This document shows, piece after piece, positions 12,719 through 19,372 of a stretch of DNA of 64,000 nucleotides (within the stretch, counting starts at the first letter, position 1; each line of letters starts with the position of its first letter). The translations under genes were made by a program, and so were the position numbers. Under the pieces are notes generated by a model. That model had not been told where the DNA came from, did not search any database, and saw only the letters and a program-made list of their open reading frames with translations. The stretch is from Pseudooctadecabacter jejudonensis (GTDB lineage: Bacteria; Pseudomonadota; Alphaproteobacteria; Rhodobacterales; Rhodobacteraceae): positions 744,001 through 808,000 of the forward strand of contig NZ_FWFT01000001.1 of the NCBI RefSeq assembly GCF_900172275.1, written 5' to 3'.

Positions 12719-14512
12719 TTAGTTTGAGGTCAGTGTTACACCCGTTGGCGTGGCGGTTTCAACGTCTGGTCGCATGCCAAGGAGAGGCGCCACACGGCGT
12801 GTCATTTCGGCGGCCACGGGCACAGCTGTCCAACCGGCGGTGCGGCGCTGTTCGCCCAAAGCCTCGACCGATGGTTCATCCAGCGTCACGATCAGCACAT
12901 AGCGCGGGTCATCTGCGGGAAACACGGACGCAAAGGTCGCAATCGTGCGGTCGTCATAATAGCCGCCCGTGGGGCGCGGTTTGTCTGCAGTGCCGGTCTT
13001 GCCGCCCACCTCGTAGCCCTCAACGTCACCGAAAGATGCGGTGCCTTCGGTGACAACGGCGCGCAACATATCCCGCGACACGGCGCTGACCTGCTCGGAC
13101 ACAATGCGCGGCCCATTTTGCGGCCCGTCTTGGCGCAGCAACGTAGGCTCCACCCGCGTGCCGCCATTCAGCAGGCTGGAATAGGCAGCCGCCAGATGCA
13201 CCGGGGATGAGCTAAGCCCGTGCCCGTAAGAGATTGTCATCGTTGAAATTTCCGACCAATTTGGCGGCAACAACGGATCACCTGTGGGCGCCTCGACCAT
13301 CTCAACTTGCGTTTCTTCCAACAGGCCCAGCTGGCCCAGGAAATCCCGCTGACGTTCGCCGCCAATCATCATCGCAATCCGTGCGGTCCCGATGTTGGAG
13401 GATTTGACGATCACATCGGTCGCAGACAGCTGCGCGCCGTAATCGTGGAAATCACGGATGCGAAAGCGGCCCCATTGCAACGGCCCTTGCGTGTCGATCA
13501 TCGTACCCGCGTTGATCAACCCCAGCTCAATTGCTTGCGCCACAGTGAAAATCTTGAACACCGACCCCAGCTCATACACCCCCTGCACGGCGCGGTTGAA
13601 CAAGGGGCTGTCCGATTGATCGGTGGCGTTGTCGGCGGCGGTCAGAACGCGGGGCCGGTCGTTGGGATCAAAATCAGGCAAGGACACCATGCTGATAATC
13701 TCACCGGTGTGCACATCCATCAGAACCGATGACGCGCCTTTGGCCTGCATCAGCATCATCCCGCCGTGCAACACCCGCTCAGAGGCCGCCTGAACGGTCA
13801 GATCCAGCGACAATTCCAGCGGCGCGCCCCCCCGGGACGGATCGCGCAACGCGTCGTCAAAGAATTTCTCTACCCCGGCCACGCCGATGACTTCGGCGGA
13901 ATTCACACCCTCACGGCCATAGGTCGCACCGCCCAAGATATGCGCGGCCACGGACCCATTGGGATACAGCCGCATCTCACGCGGGCCGAACAGCAAACCG
14001 GGGTCGCCAATGTCGTGGACCGCTTGCATCTGTTCTGGCGAAATCTCACGCCGGACCCACAGGAACCGCCGCGATCCGGTGAAATCCTCAAGCAGTTCAT
14101 CCTCTTCCAGCTCAGGGAAAATCGCCGCCAGTTCGCGTGCAGCCTTCGCCGGGTCAATCATGTCGGGGATCTGCGCATACAGGCTGTGCGTGTCCAGATT
14201 GGTCGCCAGAACGCGTCCGTTTCTGTCCACGATATCAGCACGTTGCCCGATAATCGGGGATCCTGAGGCCTGCGCCGTCGGCTCCTCCGGCACGGAGCCT
14301 GCCAACATGCCCATCCGCGCACCAATCACCAAAAACGCACAAAAGAACGCAACCCCCATGACCAACAAACGGCTTTCGGCCTGCAGACGGGACCGATCGC
14401 GGTCGTCCTCATGGCGCAAACGTTTGTTTTCGGCCTCAATCGCGTCAGGGTTTTGCCCCTGTTCGCGTGCCTTGAGAATACGGGCCAGTGGGCGAAGGGG
14501 GGTGCGGATCAT
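12719..14512 (-). CDS. ftsI: Septal penicillin-binding protein 3 FtsI (PbpB)
   Basis: FtsI is the class B transpeptidase that crosslinks septal peptidoglycan in the periplasm as FtsW's partner. The 597-residue protein has a basic cytoplasmic N-terminus, one membrane anchor (LLVMGVAFFCAFLVIGARMG), a pedestal domain with the RADIVDRNGRVLATNL motif, and the transpeptidase domain. Its three active-site motifs are visible: ELGSVFKIF (SxxK), VKSSNIG (SxN) and GGKTGTADKP (KTG). The start overlaps the ftsL stop by 4 bp (ATGA). A charged, coiled region (EAENKRLRHEDDRDRSRL) precedes the membrane helix. Confidence 0.97.
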   Translation of the reverse strand: MIRTPLRPLARILKAREQGQNPDAIEAENKRLRHEDDRDRSRLQAESRLLVMGVAFFCAFLVIGARMGMLAGSVPEEPTAQASGSPIIGQRADIVDRNGRVLATNLDTHSLYAQIPDMIDPAKAARELAAIFPELEEDELLEDFTGSRRFLWVRREISPEQMQAVHDIGDPGLLFGPREMRLYPNGSVAAHILGGATYGREGVNSAEVIGVAGVEKFFDDALRDPSRGGAPLELSLDLTVQAASERVLHGGMMLMQAKGASSVLMDVHTGEIISMVSLPDFDPNDRPRVLTAADNATDQSDSPLFNRAVQGVYELGSVFKIFTVAQAIELGLINAGTMIDTQGPLQWGRFRIRDFHDYGAQLSATDVIVKSSNIGTARIAMMIGGERQRDFLGQLGLLEETQVEMVEAPTGDPLLPPNWSEISTMTISYGHGLSSSPVHLAAAYSSLLNGGTRVEPTLLRQDGPQNGPRIVSEQVSAVSRDMLRAVVTEGTASFGDVEGYEVGGKTGTADKPRPTGGYYDDRTIATFASVFPADDPRYVLIVTLDEPSVEALGEQRRTAGWTAVPVAAEMTRRVAPLLGMRPDVETATPTGVTLTSN

Positions 14513-14862
14513 TGGCTGACCTCTGGTGCATTGTCGGACGAAACCTCGACCGAATTGGTCAAATCAAAAACGATGCCGCCCGGATAGGCGATCTGGTCAA
14601 TCCGGCCGAACCCATCGGGCATCAGCGGCAACAGGCCCAGACGGTCAAAATTCAACTCTGCCAGATCGCGCAGGCGGTCAGGACGGTTCAGATAGGCCCA
14701 TTCCGCATTCAAAACGTTCAACCGCTGATGCGACACCCCAATCTGGCGGTGCAGATCACGGACCTCACGCAGGGACGCCTGCGTCTCATAATTCTCATGA
14801 TAGGCCCAATAGGCCAGACACATCACCATCACACCGGACAAAATGTATAGAAGTGAACGCAT
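14509..14862 (-). CDS. ftsL: Cell division protein FtsL
   Basis: A 117-residue bitopic protein with an N-terminal membrane helix (LLYILSGVMVMCLAYWAY) followed by a periplasmic coiled coil (ASLREVRDLHRQIGVSHQR) containing a LNAEWAYLNRPDRL motif typical of alphaproteobacterial FtsL. FtsL links FtsQ/FtsB to the FtsWI synthase. Both ends overlap neighbours: one base with rsmH (TAATG) and 4 bp with ftsI. The order rsmH-ftsL-ftsI supports the call more than sequence alone, as FtsL is poorly conserved. Confidence 0.92.
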   Translation of the reverse strand: MRSLLYILSGVMVMCLAYWAYHENYETQASLREVRDLHRQIGVSHQRLNVLNAEWAYLNRPDRLRDLAELNFDRLGLLPLMPDGFGRIDQIAYPGGIVFDLTNSVEVSSDNAPEVSQ

Positions 14863-15842
14863 TACCTTGTGTCCTTCAACTGCGGCATGCCAAGCTTTCT
14901 GCGGTCTGCCGTGCCTGCCGGCGCCTCCGTGCGCCGCGCCACGCGCAGCTTGGCGGACCGCGCGCGGGTGTTGGCGGCAAGTTCATCCGCGTCTGGGCCG
15001 ATGGCCTTTTTGGTCACAATCTCAAACGCGGGTGTCTCGGTGTCCAACGCGGGCGCGTAGCGGTTGGCGTTGCCCGTGGCCCCGGCGCGCTGCTGGAAGA
15101 ACCGTTTGACCATCCGGTCTTCCACCGAATGGAACGTCACGACCGCCAGATAACCACCGGGGGCCAGCACACGTTCGGCGGCCTCCAGCCCCTCAACCAG
15201 CTGGCCGTATTCGTCATTCACCGCAATCCGGATCGCCTGAAAACTGCGGGTTGCAGGGTGCGACTGGCCGGGTTTGGGCCGTGGCAGACACCCTTCGATC
15301 AGCTTTGCAAGCTGGAGGGTTGTCTCGATGGGGGCGCTTTCACGCTGCGCAACAATTTTACGGGCGATGCGCCTGCTGGCGCGCTCTTCCCCATACGTAA
15401 ATAGAATGTCAGCAATATCGGCTTCGCCCGCGTGATTGATAATGTCAGCTGCACTTTGCCCCTCCTGTCCCATCCGCATATCCAGCGGCCCGTCTTTCAT
15501 AAAGCTGAACCCCCGTTCAGCCTGATCGATCTGCATCGACGACACCCCAAGATCGAGGACAACGCCCTGCGCGCCCTCGCCCCCAACCGCGTCGAGGTTT
15601 GAAAATGTGTCTTGAATCAACATGATAGACGGATCATCGGCCACCCATGTTGCCGCCTTGATCACATCGGGGTCGCGGTCGATCCCGATGACCTGATCCG
15701 CCCCCGCCTTGATCAATTCGCGCGTATAGCCGCCCGCCCCGAACGTCCCATCAATCCATGTGCCCCCAATGGGCGAACAGGCCGCAACAAGCGGCCCGAT
15801 CAGAACGGGAATATGGGGGGATGTGGCGGCAGCGGTCCCCAT
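14862..15842 (-). CDS. rsmH: 16S rRNA (cytosine-1402-N4)-methyltransferase RsmH (MraW)
   Basis: RsmH methylates N4 of C1402 in the decoding centre of 16S rRNA using SAM. The 326-residue protein begins with [15 protein letters not shown] and shows the SAM-binding [38 protein letters not shown] and the C-terminal [13 protein letters not shown] motif. It sits 3 bp after mraZ, the classic mraZ-mraW start of the dcw cluster. The C-terminal residues 300-326 form an Arg/Ala-rich tail ([13 protein letters not shown]). Confidence 0.97.
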
Positions 15843-15845
15843 GGA

Positions 15846-16361
15846 TCAGGCCTGATCCGGTGGGGTGGCTTGATCAAGGTAAAGAAGCGGATCGATGTCA
15901 TCGTCATCGTCGTCCTCTTCGGCCTCGAACCTCTCATAGGTGCCTGCGTCCCACAGCTCAAAATAATCGCCCATGGCGGTCATTGTTGCCAGCCCCGTGA
16001 GGCCGATCTGTTCGCGCAACCGTTGGGGCAACACGATGCGACCGTCTTTGTCGATCTCCGTTTCCCATGATTTGCCAAGGATCTTGCGCGATGCCTTTTT
16101 GCGCTGCACCGACCCGCGCGGCAGCCGTTTGATGCCCTCTTCAATCTCGGTCATCGCTTCGATGGTGTAGACATGCAGGCAGCCGTCCAGATGGGCGCCG
16201 TGCAACACAACCAAACGGGGGGATGGGTTTTCAGGGCAGCGCGGGTCACCGTCGGCTAGCACAGCGCGAAAGTCAGCCGGGATCGACATGCGCCCCTTGC
16301 CGTCCACCTTCTGGTGAAATTCGCCTCTGAAACTCAGACCCACTGTCCCGCGGCTCCTCAT
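15846..16361 (-). CDS. mraZ: Transcriptional regulator MraZ
   Basis: MraZ is an AbrB-fold DNA-binding protein that represses its own dcw operon in other bacteria. The 171-residue sequence has two MraZ repeats: FRGEFHQKVDGKGRMSIPAD in the first and WETEIDKDGRIVLPQRLRE in the second, each ending in the DxxGRxxxP signature. A very acidic tail (EAEEDDDDDDIDP) follows and is longer than in enterobacterial MraZ. I list the ATG at 16361. A GTG at 16343, eight to ten bases after AGGAG, would start the protein near SFRGEFHQ and is a serious alternative. It is the first gene after the UpsM-like leader. Confidence 0.94.
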   Translation of the reverse strand: MRSRGTVGLSFRGEFHQKVDGKGRMSIPADFRAVLADGDPRCPENPSPRLVVLHGAHLDGCLHVYTIEAMTEIEEGIKRLPRGSVQRKKASRKILGKSWETEIDKDGRIVLPQRLREQIGLTGLATMTAMGDYFELWDAGTYERFEAEEDDDDDDIDPLLYLDQATPPDQA

Positions 16362-16394
16362 CTGTCCCCCGATTAAAATCGCTCCGTTTAAACG

Positions 16395-16434
16395 GAAAAC
16401 GGCGGATCAGACTGCTGCCACTGCCTGATCCGCC
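16395..16434 (-). terminator. Intrinsic terminator inside the dcw leader
   Basis: The arms GGCGGATCAG (16401-16410) and CTGATCCGCC (16425-16434) form a perfect 10-bp stem with a 14-nt loop. Read on the minus strand, the stem is followed by GTTTTCC. It lies 40 bp before mraZ, so it must be bypassed for dcw expression. On the plus strand no T run follows, which sets the direction. Confidence 0.82.
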
Positions 16435-16604
16435 GACTTCTTCCCGTTGCCGGGAGTGTCCAGCTGCGCGCGCCACCTGGGGGGATGTCTGCTCGCTCGC
16501 GCGCCGGATCTCTTCGTTCAAGAAGTTGGGTGCCTGTATGAAACCTGACCTTGGGTTGGTCGGTGGGGTCGTTTGGTGCCCCGTGTTGTCTGCCCGTCTT
16601 CTTG
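16395..16604 (-). ncRNA. UpsM-like sRNA in the 5' leader of the dcw cluster
   Basis: On the minus strand upstream of mraZ there is a candidate promoter and, about 210 nt downstream, a strong intrinsic terminator. This is the layout of UpsM, a leader-derived sRNA of about 206 nt described upstream of mraZ in Rhodobacter sphaeroides and said to be conserved in Rhodobacteraceae. The interval has no convincing open frame with codon structure. The 5' end is predicted from the promoter and is uncertain by several bases; the 3' end is the terminator. Transcripts that read through the terminator would supply the dcw mRNA, so the leader probably controls cluster expression. Confidence 0.72.
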
Positions 16605-16610
16605 CAATCA

Positions 16611-16639
16611 TGTATGCACGGGAATTCGTGGTACGCCAA
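16611..16639 (-). promoter_or_regulatory. Candidate promoter of the UpsM/dcw leader
   Basis: On the minus strand TTGGCG (16639 to 16634) and CATACA (16616 to 16611) are separated by 17 bp, an acceptable sigma-70-like pair. Initiation about 7 bp further on gives a leader RNA of about 210 nt up to the terminator, agreeing with the known length of UpsM. The assignment is by eye only. Confidence 0.45.
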
Positions 16640-17001
16640 GGATTTTTTGGCACTTCATGGAACTACATGGTGTTTTAGGGGCCTGCTCAAAACAACATAT
16701 AGACCAAAAAGGGGGCAATTCGGGACACATTCAGTGCCAATGGGGAAATGAGTCACTAGATATTGTGACCTCTCGACCATCAAAAAAAGTTCCAGATTTT
16801 CCCAGAAAATTTCAGATTGTAGTGCCGAGAGGCCGATTTCCGGCCCCAATATGGGGAGATATACGCCGAAATCTGGCCGATTTCCACCGACTCACGGGTG
16901 ATTCACTGCAATTTGATTCGACCACACCATAAGTGTGCCATGGTTTCCCAAAGCGACCGGAAAATCCCATTCAGACCCTGATGGGCCCCAGCCCTTTGAC
17001 G
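16640..17001. other. AT-richer, repeat-bearing intergenic region upstream of the dcw leader
   Basis: No supported gene lies here. The stretch is clearly less GC-rich than its flanks. It contains an inverted repeat (GGCCGATTTC at 16831-16840 and GAAATCTGGCC at 16868-16878) enclosing CCCC-AATAT-GGGG (16844-16856), and the 11-mer GGCCGATTTCC occurs twice (16831-16841 and 16875-16885). Since the GNAT gene at 17002 reads into it, part may act as its 3' end. Otherwise it is upstream control sequence for the division cluster. Confidence 0.45.
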
Positions 17002-18894: not shown

Positions 18895-19107
18895 ATGGCA
18901 TATGTAACTGACACACGTACCGGTGGTTTTTCCATCTTCGCCCGTATCGCCGAATGGCGCGACACTGCCGCCAAATCCCGTGCGCAGCGCGAAAAGTACC
19001 TTGAGACGAAAAAAGAATTGAACCGTTTGTCCCGTCGTGAGTTGGCAGACATCGGTATCACGGTCGGCGACATTGAGCGCATCGCGCTTGAGGCAGCCAA
19101 AGGCTGA
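18895..19107 (+). CDS. DUF1127 small arginine-rich protein (CcaF1-like)
   Basis: A 70-residue basic protein ending in the DUF1127 motif, LNRLSRRELADIGITVGDIE followed by RIALEAAKG. DUF1127 proteins of this kind bind RNA: in Rhodobacter sphaeroides CcaF1 is encoded directly before the CcsR sRNAs and affects their maturation and RNA turnover. Here the gene is likewise followed within 13 bp by an array of CUCCUCCC hairpins, so I infer the same role. The start ATG at 18895 has AAAGAG about 9 bp upstream. Confidence 0.9.
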   Translation: MAYVTDTRTGGFSIFARIAEWRDTAAKSRAQREKYLETKKELNRLSRRELADIGITVGDIERIALEAAKG

Positions 19108-19119
19108 TCCGACCAGCAA

Positions 19120-19158
19120 GATCGGGGCGTCTCCTCCTCCCTTTGACGTCCCGTGATC
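19120..19158 (+). ncRNA. CcsR-like stress sRNA hairpin 1
   Basis: A hairpin whose loop carries TCCTCCTCCC. The stem pairs GGGGCGTC (19124-19131) with GACGTCCC (19145-19152) including one G-T pair, and an outer GATC/GATC segment extends it to 19120-19158. It starts 13 bp after the DUF1127 stop. The loop sequence is anti-Shine-Dalgarno-like, as in the CcsR/cuckoo RNA family. Confidence 0.85.
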
Positions 19159-19196
19159 GCGCCCCAGCCCTCTCCTCCTCCCTGGGTGACGGGCGC
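19159..19196 (+). ncRNA. CcsR-like stress sRNA hairpin 2
   Basis: The second array element. GCGCCC (19159-19164) pairs with GGGCGC (19191-19196), an internal loop follows, then CCC (19168-19170) pairs with GGG (19184-19186). The apical loop TCTCCTCCTCCCT displays the CUCCUCCC motif. It directly abuts the first hairpin. Confidence 0.85.
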
Positions 19197-19199
19197 ATT

Positions 19200-19251
19200 G
19201 ATCAAGACGCGGCGGTGTCTCTCCTCCTCCCTGACACCGCCGCACTTGATC
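19200..19251 (+). ncRNA. CcsR-like stress sRNA hairpin 3
   Basis: The best formed element. A perfect 11-bp stem GCGGCGGTGTC/GACACCGCCGC (19209-19219 and 19233-19243) is extended by an outer GATCAAG/CTTGATC stem (19200-19206 and 19245-19251). The loop reads TCTCCTCCTCCCT and contains the CUCCUCCC motif. Confidence 0.88.
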
Positions 19252-19265
19252 ACAGAATACCAAGT

Positions 19266-19283
19266 CCCCGACCTCCCACGGGG
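19266..19283 (+). ncRNA. Degenerate CcsR-like hairpin
   Basis: A short CCCCG/CGGGG stem (19266-19270 and 19279-19283) encloses ACCTCCCA, a shortened form of the CUCCUCCC loop. It lies between the third and fourth complete elements and may be a decayed array member or a spacer structure. Confidence 0.5.
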
Positions 19284-19293
19284 CACAACGTTG

Positions 19294-19334
19294 AACGGCG
19301 AAACCCACCTCCTCCCTTGGGTTTCGCCGTTTTT
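19294..19334 (+). ncRNA. CcsR-like sRNA hairpin 4, also the array terminator
   Basis: The stem CGGCGAAACCC (19296-19306) pairs with GGGTTTCGCCG (19319-19329) around a loop containing CCTCCTCCC. It is followed by TTTTT (19330-19334), so this element doubles as an intrinsic terminator that ends the DUF1127-CcsR transcript 39 bp before the MFS gene. Confidence 0.87.
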
Positions 19335-19372
19335 CGTTTGTGGTGCCGCCTCGATCAGGTCAGGCTGATGCC

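Follow-up and report, generated by a model that had tools for sequence, protein, structure and literature searches.

An UpsM-type leader ahead of the dcw genes of a Rhodobacteraceae bacterium and its probable StsR-type partner RNA

What kind of RNA precedes the first gene of the dcw cluster in this Rhodobacteraceae bacterium, and what might act on it? In the 64,000-nt stretch of DNA that we analysed (the window), the cluster lies on the minus strand, where mraZ, rsmH, ftsL and a transpeptidase gene succeed one another from 16343 down to 12719. MraZ was identified by NCBIfam and Pfam models (15846-16343, start set by comparison), and is followed by rsmH (mraW; 14862-15842; TIGR00006, PF01795), ftsL (14509-14862; NF049847.1) and the transpeptidase gene, ftsI by position (12719-14512; PF00905, PF03717). 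The conserved start of MraZ appears to be the GTG at 16343 rather than the ATG at 16361, since the ATG is not kept among relatives and the frame VGLSFRGEF read from the GTG is kept within the genus; a GTG start is also given for mraZ of R. sphaeroides (PMC5089854). Directly before mraZ lies a leader of about 261 nt, the position held in R. sphaeroides by UpsM (RSs0682). The latter is described as a 206-nt RNA with an intrinsic terminator in a 268-nt 5′ UTR, with read-through past the terminator of about 1 in 100, and as being processed to 130 nt in an RNase E- and Hfq-dependent manner (PMC5089854; the 130-nt length also in PMC6238624).

We found a candidate leader promoter on the minus strand, with a −35 element TTGGCG (16634-16639) and a −10 element CATACA (16611-16616) spaced by 17 nt. 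By eye it matches the sigma-70 consensus at 7 of 12 positions, and it is absent from the output of a consensus promoter scan of the window. Its place upstream of mraZ is constant across the relatives in the leader comparison, with the TTG kept and the CATA kept in many of them, and because of this conserved position we consider the promoter credible despite its weak consensus. Transcription is predicted to start near 16604. Downstream, the intrinsic terminator stem-loop (R4, 16435-16400, minus strand) reads CGGCGGATCAG(GC)...(GT)CTGATCCGCCG and is followed by an interrupted U-tract, TTTTCCGTTT (16390-16399), recognised from the sequence and the leader comparison. Its loop is larger than the 8 nt to which our terminator scan was limited; the stem is recognised from the sequence, from covariation and from a count of its pairs, made in the identical hairpin of locus L003. 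Counted from the predicted start, and ending with the first U-run, whose last U is at 16396, the terminated RNA would measure about 209 nt (16396-16604). The minus strand of the leader folds better than all of 200 dinucleotide shuffles (z −3.16). A preliminary description of this DNA had placed a promoter and a perfect 10-bp terminator around some 210 nt before mraZ. The enclosed RNA holds up on the sequence, the fold score and compensatory changes, and the stem is indeed perfect, with 11 perfect pairs instead of 10 (13 when one G-U pair is counted).

A hairpin in this place might instead serve mainly to insulate mraZ from upstream transcription, with mraZ transcribed from its own promoter after the hairpin and no functional sRNA made, and the poor consensus of the promoter at 16639-16611 would fit such an arrangement. 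We consider this very improbable: more than 350 bp separate the leader promoter from the end of the nearest upstream gene of its strand, fragments without the UpsM promoter are described as giving no mraZ activity in R. sphaeroides (PMC5089854), and conservation reaches beyond the terminator to the target site, the R1 helix and the R2 hairpin considered below.

Around the leader promoter (16617-16670, minus strand) there are CC boxes at 10-nt spacing, which are clearer in relatives than in the window and which we take to resemble MraZ operators (TGGGN repeats). They raise the possibility that the leader promoter is under feedback from MraZ by way of boxes recurring every 10 nt, and that this transcriptional loop, not an RNA, is the main control. 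CC/GG boxes 10 nt apart are present around the promoter in many relatives, in favour of such feedback; in the window itself 156 of 1000 shuffles score as well, so that the boxes are not significant there, and the conserved parts of the RNA would be left unexplained. We regard feedback as the main control as quite unlikely.

Elsewhere in the window (18898-19340, plus strand) lies a DUF1127 gene (PF06568). Four CUCCUCC-type repeats come after it, near 19131, 19172, 19221 and 19308, and so does a terminator-like hairpin. The repeat type presumably matches that of ccsR1-4 of R. sphaeroides, and by analogy the locus looks like a ccaF1-ccsR1-4 locus. That locus is described in the R. sphaeroides literature (PMC8625941, PMC11354728).

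Between the promoter and R4 the leader contains, in order, the 5′ strand of a helix R1, a 16-nt site AGGUUUCAUACAGGCA (16531-16546), the 3′ strand of R1, a hairpin R2 (16459-16508; conservation, covariation and folds) and a short hairpin R3 (16442-16455; folds), all on the minus strand. MraZ was detected in 55 of a set of 61 genomes that includes the window's own, and 30 leaders were compared. Three blocks are nearly invariant, namely AGGUUUCAUACAGGC, the loop side of R2, CGAGCAGACAUCCCCCCAGGUGG, and the loop side of the terminator, GUGGCAGC. The terminator stem itself varies among relatives with many compensatory changes. Two-sided changes occur in at least one leader at 11 of 40 predicted pairs when 19 leaders are used and at 16 of 36 when 55 are used, mostly in the terminator. 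Both the alignment and a covariance model derived from the set of 19 indicate that the R2-R4 structure is conserved in Rhodobacteraceae. Within the order, 288 of 292 genomes matched the model; they cover 109 of 112 genera and all belong to the window's family, taken here as Rhodobacteraceae in the broad sense. In a sample of the class the model matched 5 of 385 genomes, all five in-family, and none of the 380 outside the family. In a count over 58 leaders, in which one leader cut by a contig end (G035) is scored as a miss, ACAGGC is present in 55, CATACAGGC in 43 and CGAGCAG in 47. The leader is a probable homologue of UpsM, and the UpsM-like identity proposed earlier is supported by its place before mraZ, its length, its R1-R4 anatomy and its conservation. 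The preliminary description further held that this would extend the arrangement to another genus; it is a further instance, and the novelty falls away with the report of Weber et al. 2016 that the feature is found 'consistently' in Rhodobacteraceae (PMC5089854). Our literature search returned no paper on sRNAs and mraZ in Rhodobacterales.

The conservation of R2 equals that of the 16-nt site, and most leaders carry its side AGCAGACAUCCCCCCAGGUGG unchanged or almost unchanged. This invariance is not explained by the site, and would suit an attenuator that senses a ligand or a protein, with R2 and its invariant C-rich loop as the sensor and pairing with another RNA as a secondary matter. A riboswitch was indeed suggested by Weber et al. 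2016 (PMC5089854). The same source did not find an R2-R4 switch to be conserved, Rfam 15 yielded no match to the leader at E up to 1, and two leaders (G019, G033) lack R2 yet keep all or most of the 16-nt site, and we therefore hold a sensing attenuator to be unlikely. We also observed that G-rich stretches ahead of mraZ, GGGGGA for example, could lie opposite the C-run of CGAGCAGACAUCCCCCCAGGUGG (within 16459-16508, minus strand). Candidate orphan R2-like elements elsewhere came down to one weak match, in G257 (L092). A search for the R2 pattern in 40 genomes gave a single match each in 31, of which 29 were exact or one base off, and those matches with coordinates that were compared with the leader matches were the mraZ leader. 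Two matches differed by 2-3 bases, lying about 160 nt before the mraZ match in G272 and about 23 kb from the leader in G101. On this search we rejected a family of orphan R2 copies, and orphan copies of the whole leader were rejected likewise, the extra model matches being mostly opposite-strand self-hits of hairpins or a leader split by a contig end (G194).

We return to the reading of the leader as an UpsM RNA that is acted upon by a second RNA. In R. sphaeroides this RNA is StsR (RSs0827), a 72-nt stress-induced sRNA (PMC8307010) made under stress and in stationary phase and induced by RpoHI/RpoHII, which is described as binding UpsM and the dcw 5′ UTR, remodelling the structure, opening an RNase E site and lowering dcw mRNA (PMC8307010, PMC8625941, PMC11354728). 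When the complement of the invariant block was searched for across the genome, UpsM and one other site came up (C5:419897-419915, minus strand), the latter on the same contig and about 340 kb from the leader. It carries TGCCTGTATGAAACCT, with 16 nt perfectly complementary to leader positions 16546-16531, which in silico would form an StsR binding site. The exact 16-mer occurs twice in this genome (G000), as its complement in UpsM and in the StsR-like RNA, against a chance expectation of about 0.0016. The locus is intergenic and lies downstream of promoter-like elements (TTGGAT..TTATAA); it forms a hairpin with the loop UUGCCUGUAU and ends in a terminator. From a predicted start at ACUGCUCG to the U-tail the RNA would be about 74 nt long, close to the 72 nt of StsR, and we regard it as the probable StsR-type partner of the leader. 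The preliminary description made no mention of the StsR target, of the StsR-like gene or of R1.

Reading 31 copies of the StsR-like RNA, we found ACTGCTCGATAGGTTTCT and GCCTGTATGAAACCTGCCTC common to all. Within a set of 33 genomes, 22 have two exact sites and six have one exact site and one with a single mismatch; the leaders of G029 and G033 have diverged, and three incomplete genomes (G002, G011 and G018; 61-79%) have one exact site only. The 16-nt site is nearly invariant and therefore offers hardly any compensatory change between the RNAs; in G007 a single C-to-U change in the leader site is retained as a G-U pair with StsR. A second near-match, GGCCTGTTTGAAACCT, was seen in five genomes of the genus (G007, G012, G014, G017 and G018).

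A covariance model of StsR matched all 292 genomes of the order (112 of 112 genera). In the class sample it matched 8 of 385 genomes, five in-family and three of the 380 outside (E 3e-4 to 9e-4), and these three were rejected, being plain terminators that lack the seed. The locus matched nothing in Rfam 15 at gathering score. A scan of named genomes with an exact StsR 35-mer returned at least 118 stretches; among the matches listed with titles, 80 in number, all titles are of known Rhodobacteraceae or Rhodobacterales genera or of unspecified Alphaproteobacteria, and none of the 80 is R. sphaeroides (Cereibacter). The genera concerned, including Neomegalonema, we take to be Rhodobacteraceae or Rhodobacterales. 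On either side of the StsR locus the neighbouring gene aligns with several named loci, which makes the locus syntenic. The literature collection that we searched contained no paper on StsR conservation in Rhodobacteraceae, and we make no claim that the pairing or its conservation is new to the literature.

The two RNAs do not occur together in every family genome. All of 28 family genomes, most of them chosen because the leader had diverged or was missing, have StsR, and in several of them the StsR site of the leader is shrunk or unrecognisable. StsR is kept and a recognisable leader is missing in G167, G198, G022, G026, G032 and G035, and the leader is weak in G254 and G282. StsR thus has a wider distribution than the leader, which suggests additional conserved targets. 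A 40-nt block of the StsR-like RNA, ACUGCUCGAUAGGUUUCUUGCCUGUAUGAAACCUGCCUCA (L097 1460-1540, minus strand), is almost unchanged across the family; this is more conservation than one target would need, and other conserved targets probably exist.

How might pairing with StsR be transmitted to the dcw mRNA? In our folds the 5′ end of the leader, CAAGAAGACGGG (16593-16604), pairs with CCCAACUUCUUG (16519-16530), the strand immediately 3′ of the StsR site, to form R1. The helix recurs in other leaders with different letters, for example GAUGAGGACGGG/CCCGCUUUCAUC and GGUAACGACGGG/CUCGUUUUUACC. In 31 of 55 leaders at least 10 of the 12 positions of its strands are paired, compared with a mean of 25% and a maximum of 38% when strands are swapped between species, and shuffling single leaders gave p ≤0.05 in 24 of 55 and ≤0.01 in 16 of 55. 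RNAalifold run on the 55 leaders did not predict R1. Taken across genera, the sequences suggest that R1 covaries. Counting 130 nt back from the RNA 3′ end would put the RNase E cut of this leader at about 16525, inside the 3′ strand of R1 and adjoining the StsR site. Co-folding StsR with UpsM opened R1 and formed 31 intermolecular pairs (delta −15.5 kcal/mol), and from this modelling we infer that R1 may act as a gate, keeping the RNase E site concealed as long as StsR is not bound. Duplex energy was discarded as a test of specificity, random windows reaching the same values as UpsM. A second contact, between CUGCUCG at the StsR 5′ end and the CGAGCAG of UpsM (47 of 58 leaders), is possible; co-folding chose another partner for it, and the conservation of CGAGCAG may be explained by R2 itself.

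We suggest, with a probability of roughly 0.8, that the leader and its StsR-type partner work as a sequence of termination, StsR pairing, R1 opening and RNase E cleavage that lowers dcw expression. Transcription would start near 16604 and mostly end at R4, so that an RNA of about 209 nt becomes abundant, and a minority of polymerases would read through the imperfect U-tract into mraZ. Once StsR is made, its hairpin loop UGCCUGUAU would pair first with AUACAGGCA of the leader, the duplex then extending to 16 bp. This duplex would break R1 and expose its 3′ strand (16530-16519), directly after the site, to RNase E, which would cut both UpsM and the leader-bearing dcw mRNA, so that dcw expression falls. 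In this genome the mechanism is suggested by anatomy, conservation, covariation and complementarity; termination, read-through, binding and cleavage come from work in R. sphaeroides, and it is by analogy with that species that we infer the same mechanism, and the loop-first order, here. The preliminary description had also argued that all division and murein gene expression must depend on read-through. Such dependence has been demonstrated for mraZ in R. sphaeroides; it need not hold for every division gene, since seven conserved promoters are described within the dcw cluster of that species (PMC9275681).

Somewhat more tentatively, with the odds only a little in its favour, we propose that across Rhodobacteraceae cell division is braked by a pair of RNAs, the near-invariant StsR and the dcw leader, where the StsR loop reads the 16-nt site (core ACAGGCA) and the covarying R1 helix gates the RNase E site. 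The leader adds a probable instance of UpsM-type control of division genes in another genome. For any Rhodobacteraceae species, the comparison pinpoints both RNAs, where exactly they touch, and which helix a mutation should target. The work cited on StsR and UpsM was done in R. sphaeroides; the models described here match 292/292 and 288/292 genomes of the order, respectively.

We likened the two RNAs to those of R. sphaeroides by published description (position, length and anatomy). Like UpsM, the leader RNA lies upstream of mraZ, is of similar length (209 against 206 nt, in a leader of about 261 against 268 nt), ends in a terminator and has the R1-R4 anatomy. It differs in R1, which appears to covary here, whereas R1 is called 'hardly conserved' in PMC5089854. 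The partner resembles StsR in its length (about 74 against 72 nt), its own terminator and its complementarity to UpsM. Beyond this family, the riboswitch-derived SreA and SreB of Listeria are likewise attenuated leaders that also serve as trans-acting RNAs (PMC5089854); unlike them, the leader described here has no known ligand, and its partner is an sRNA.
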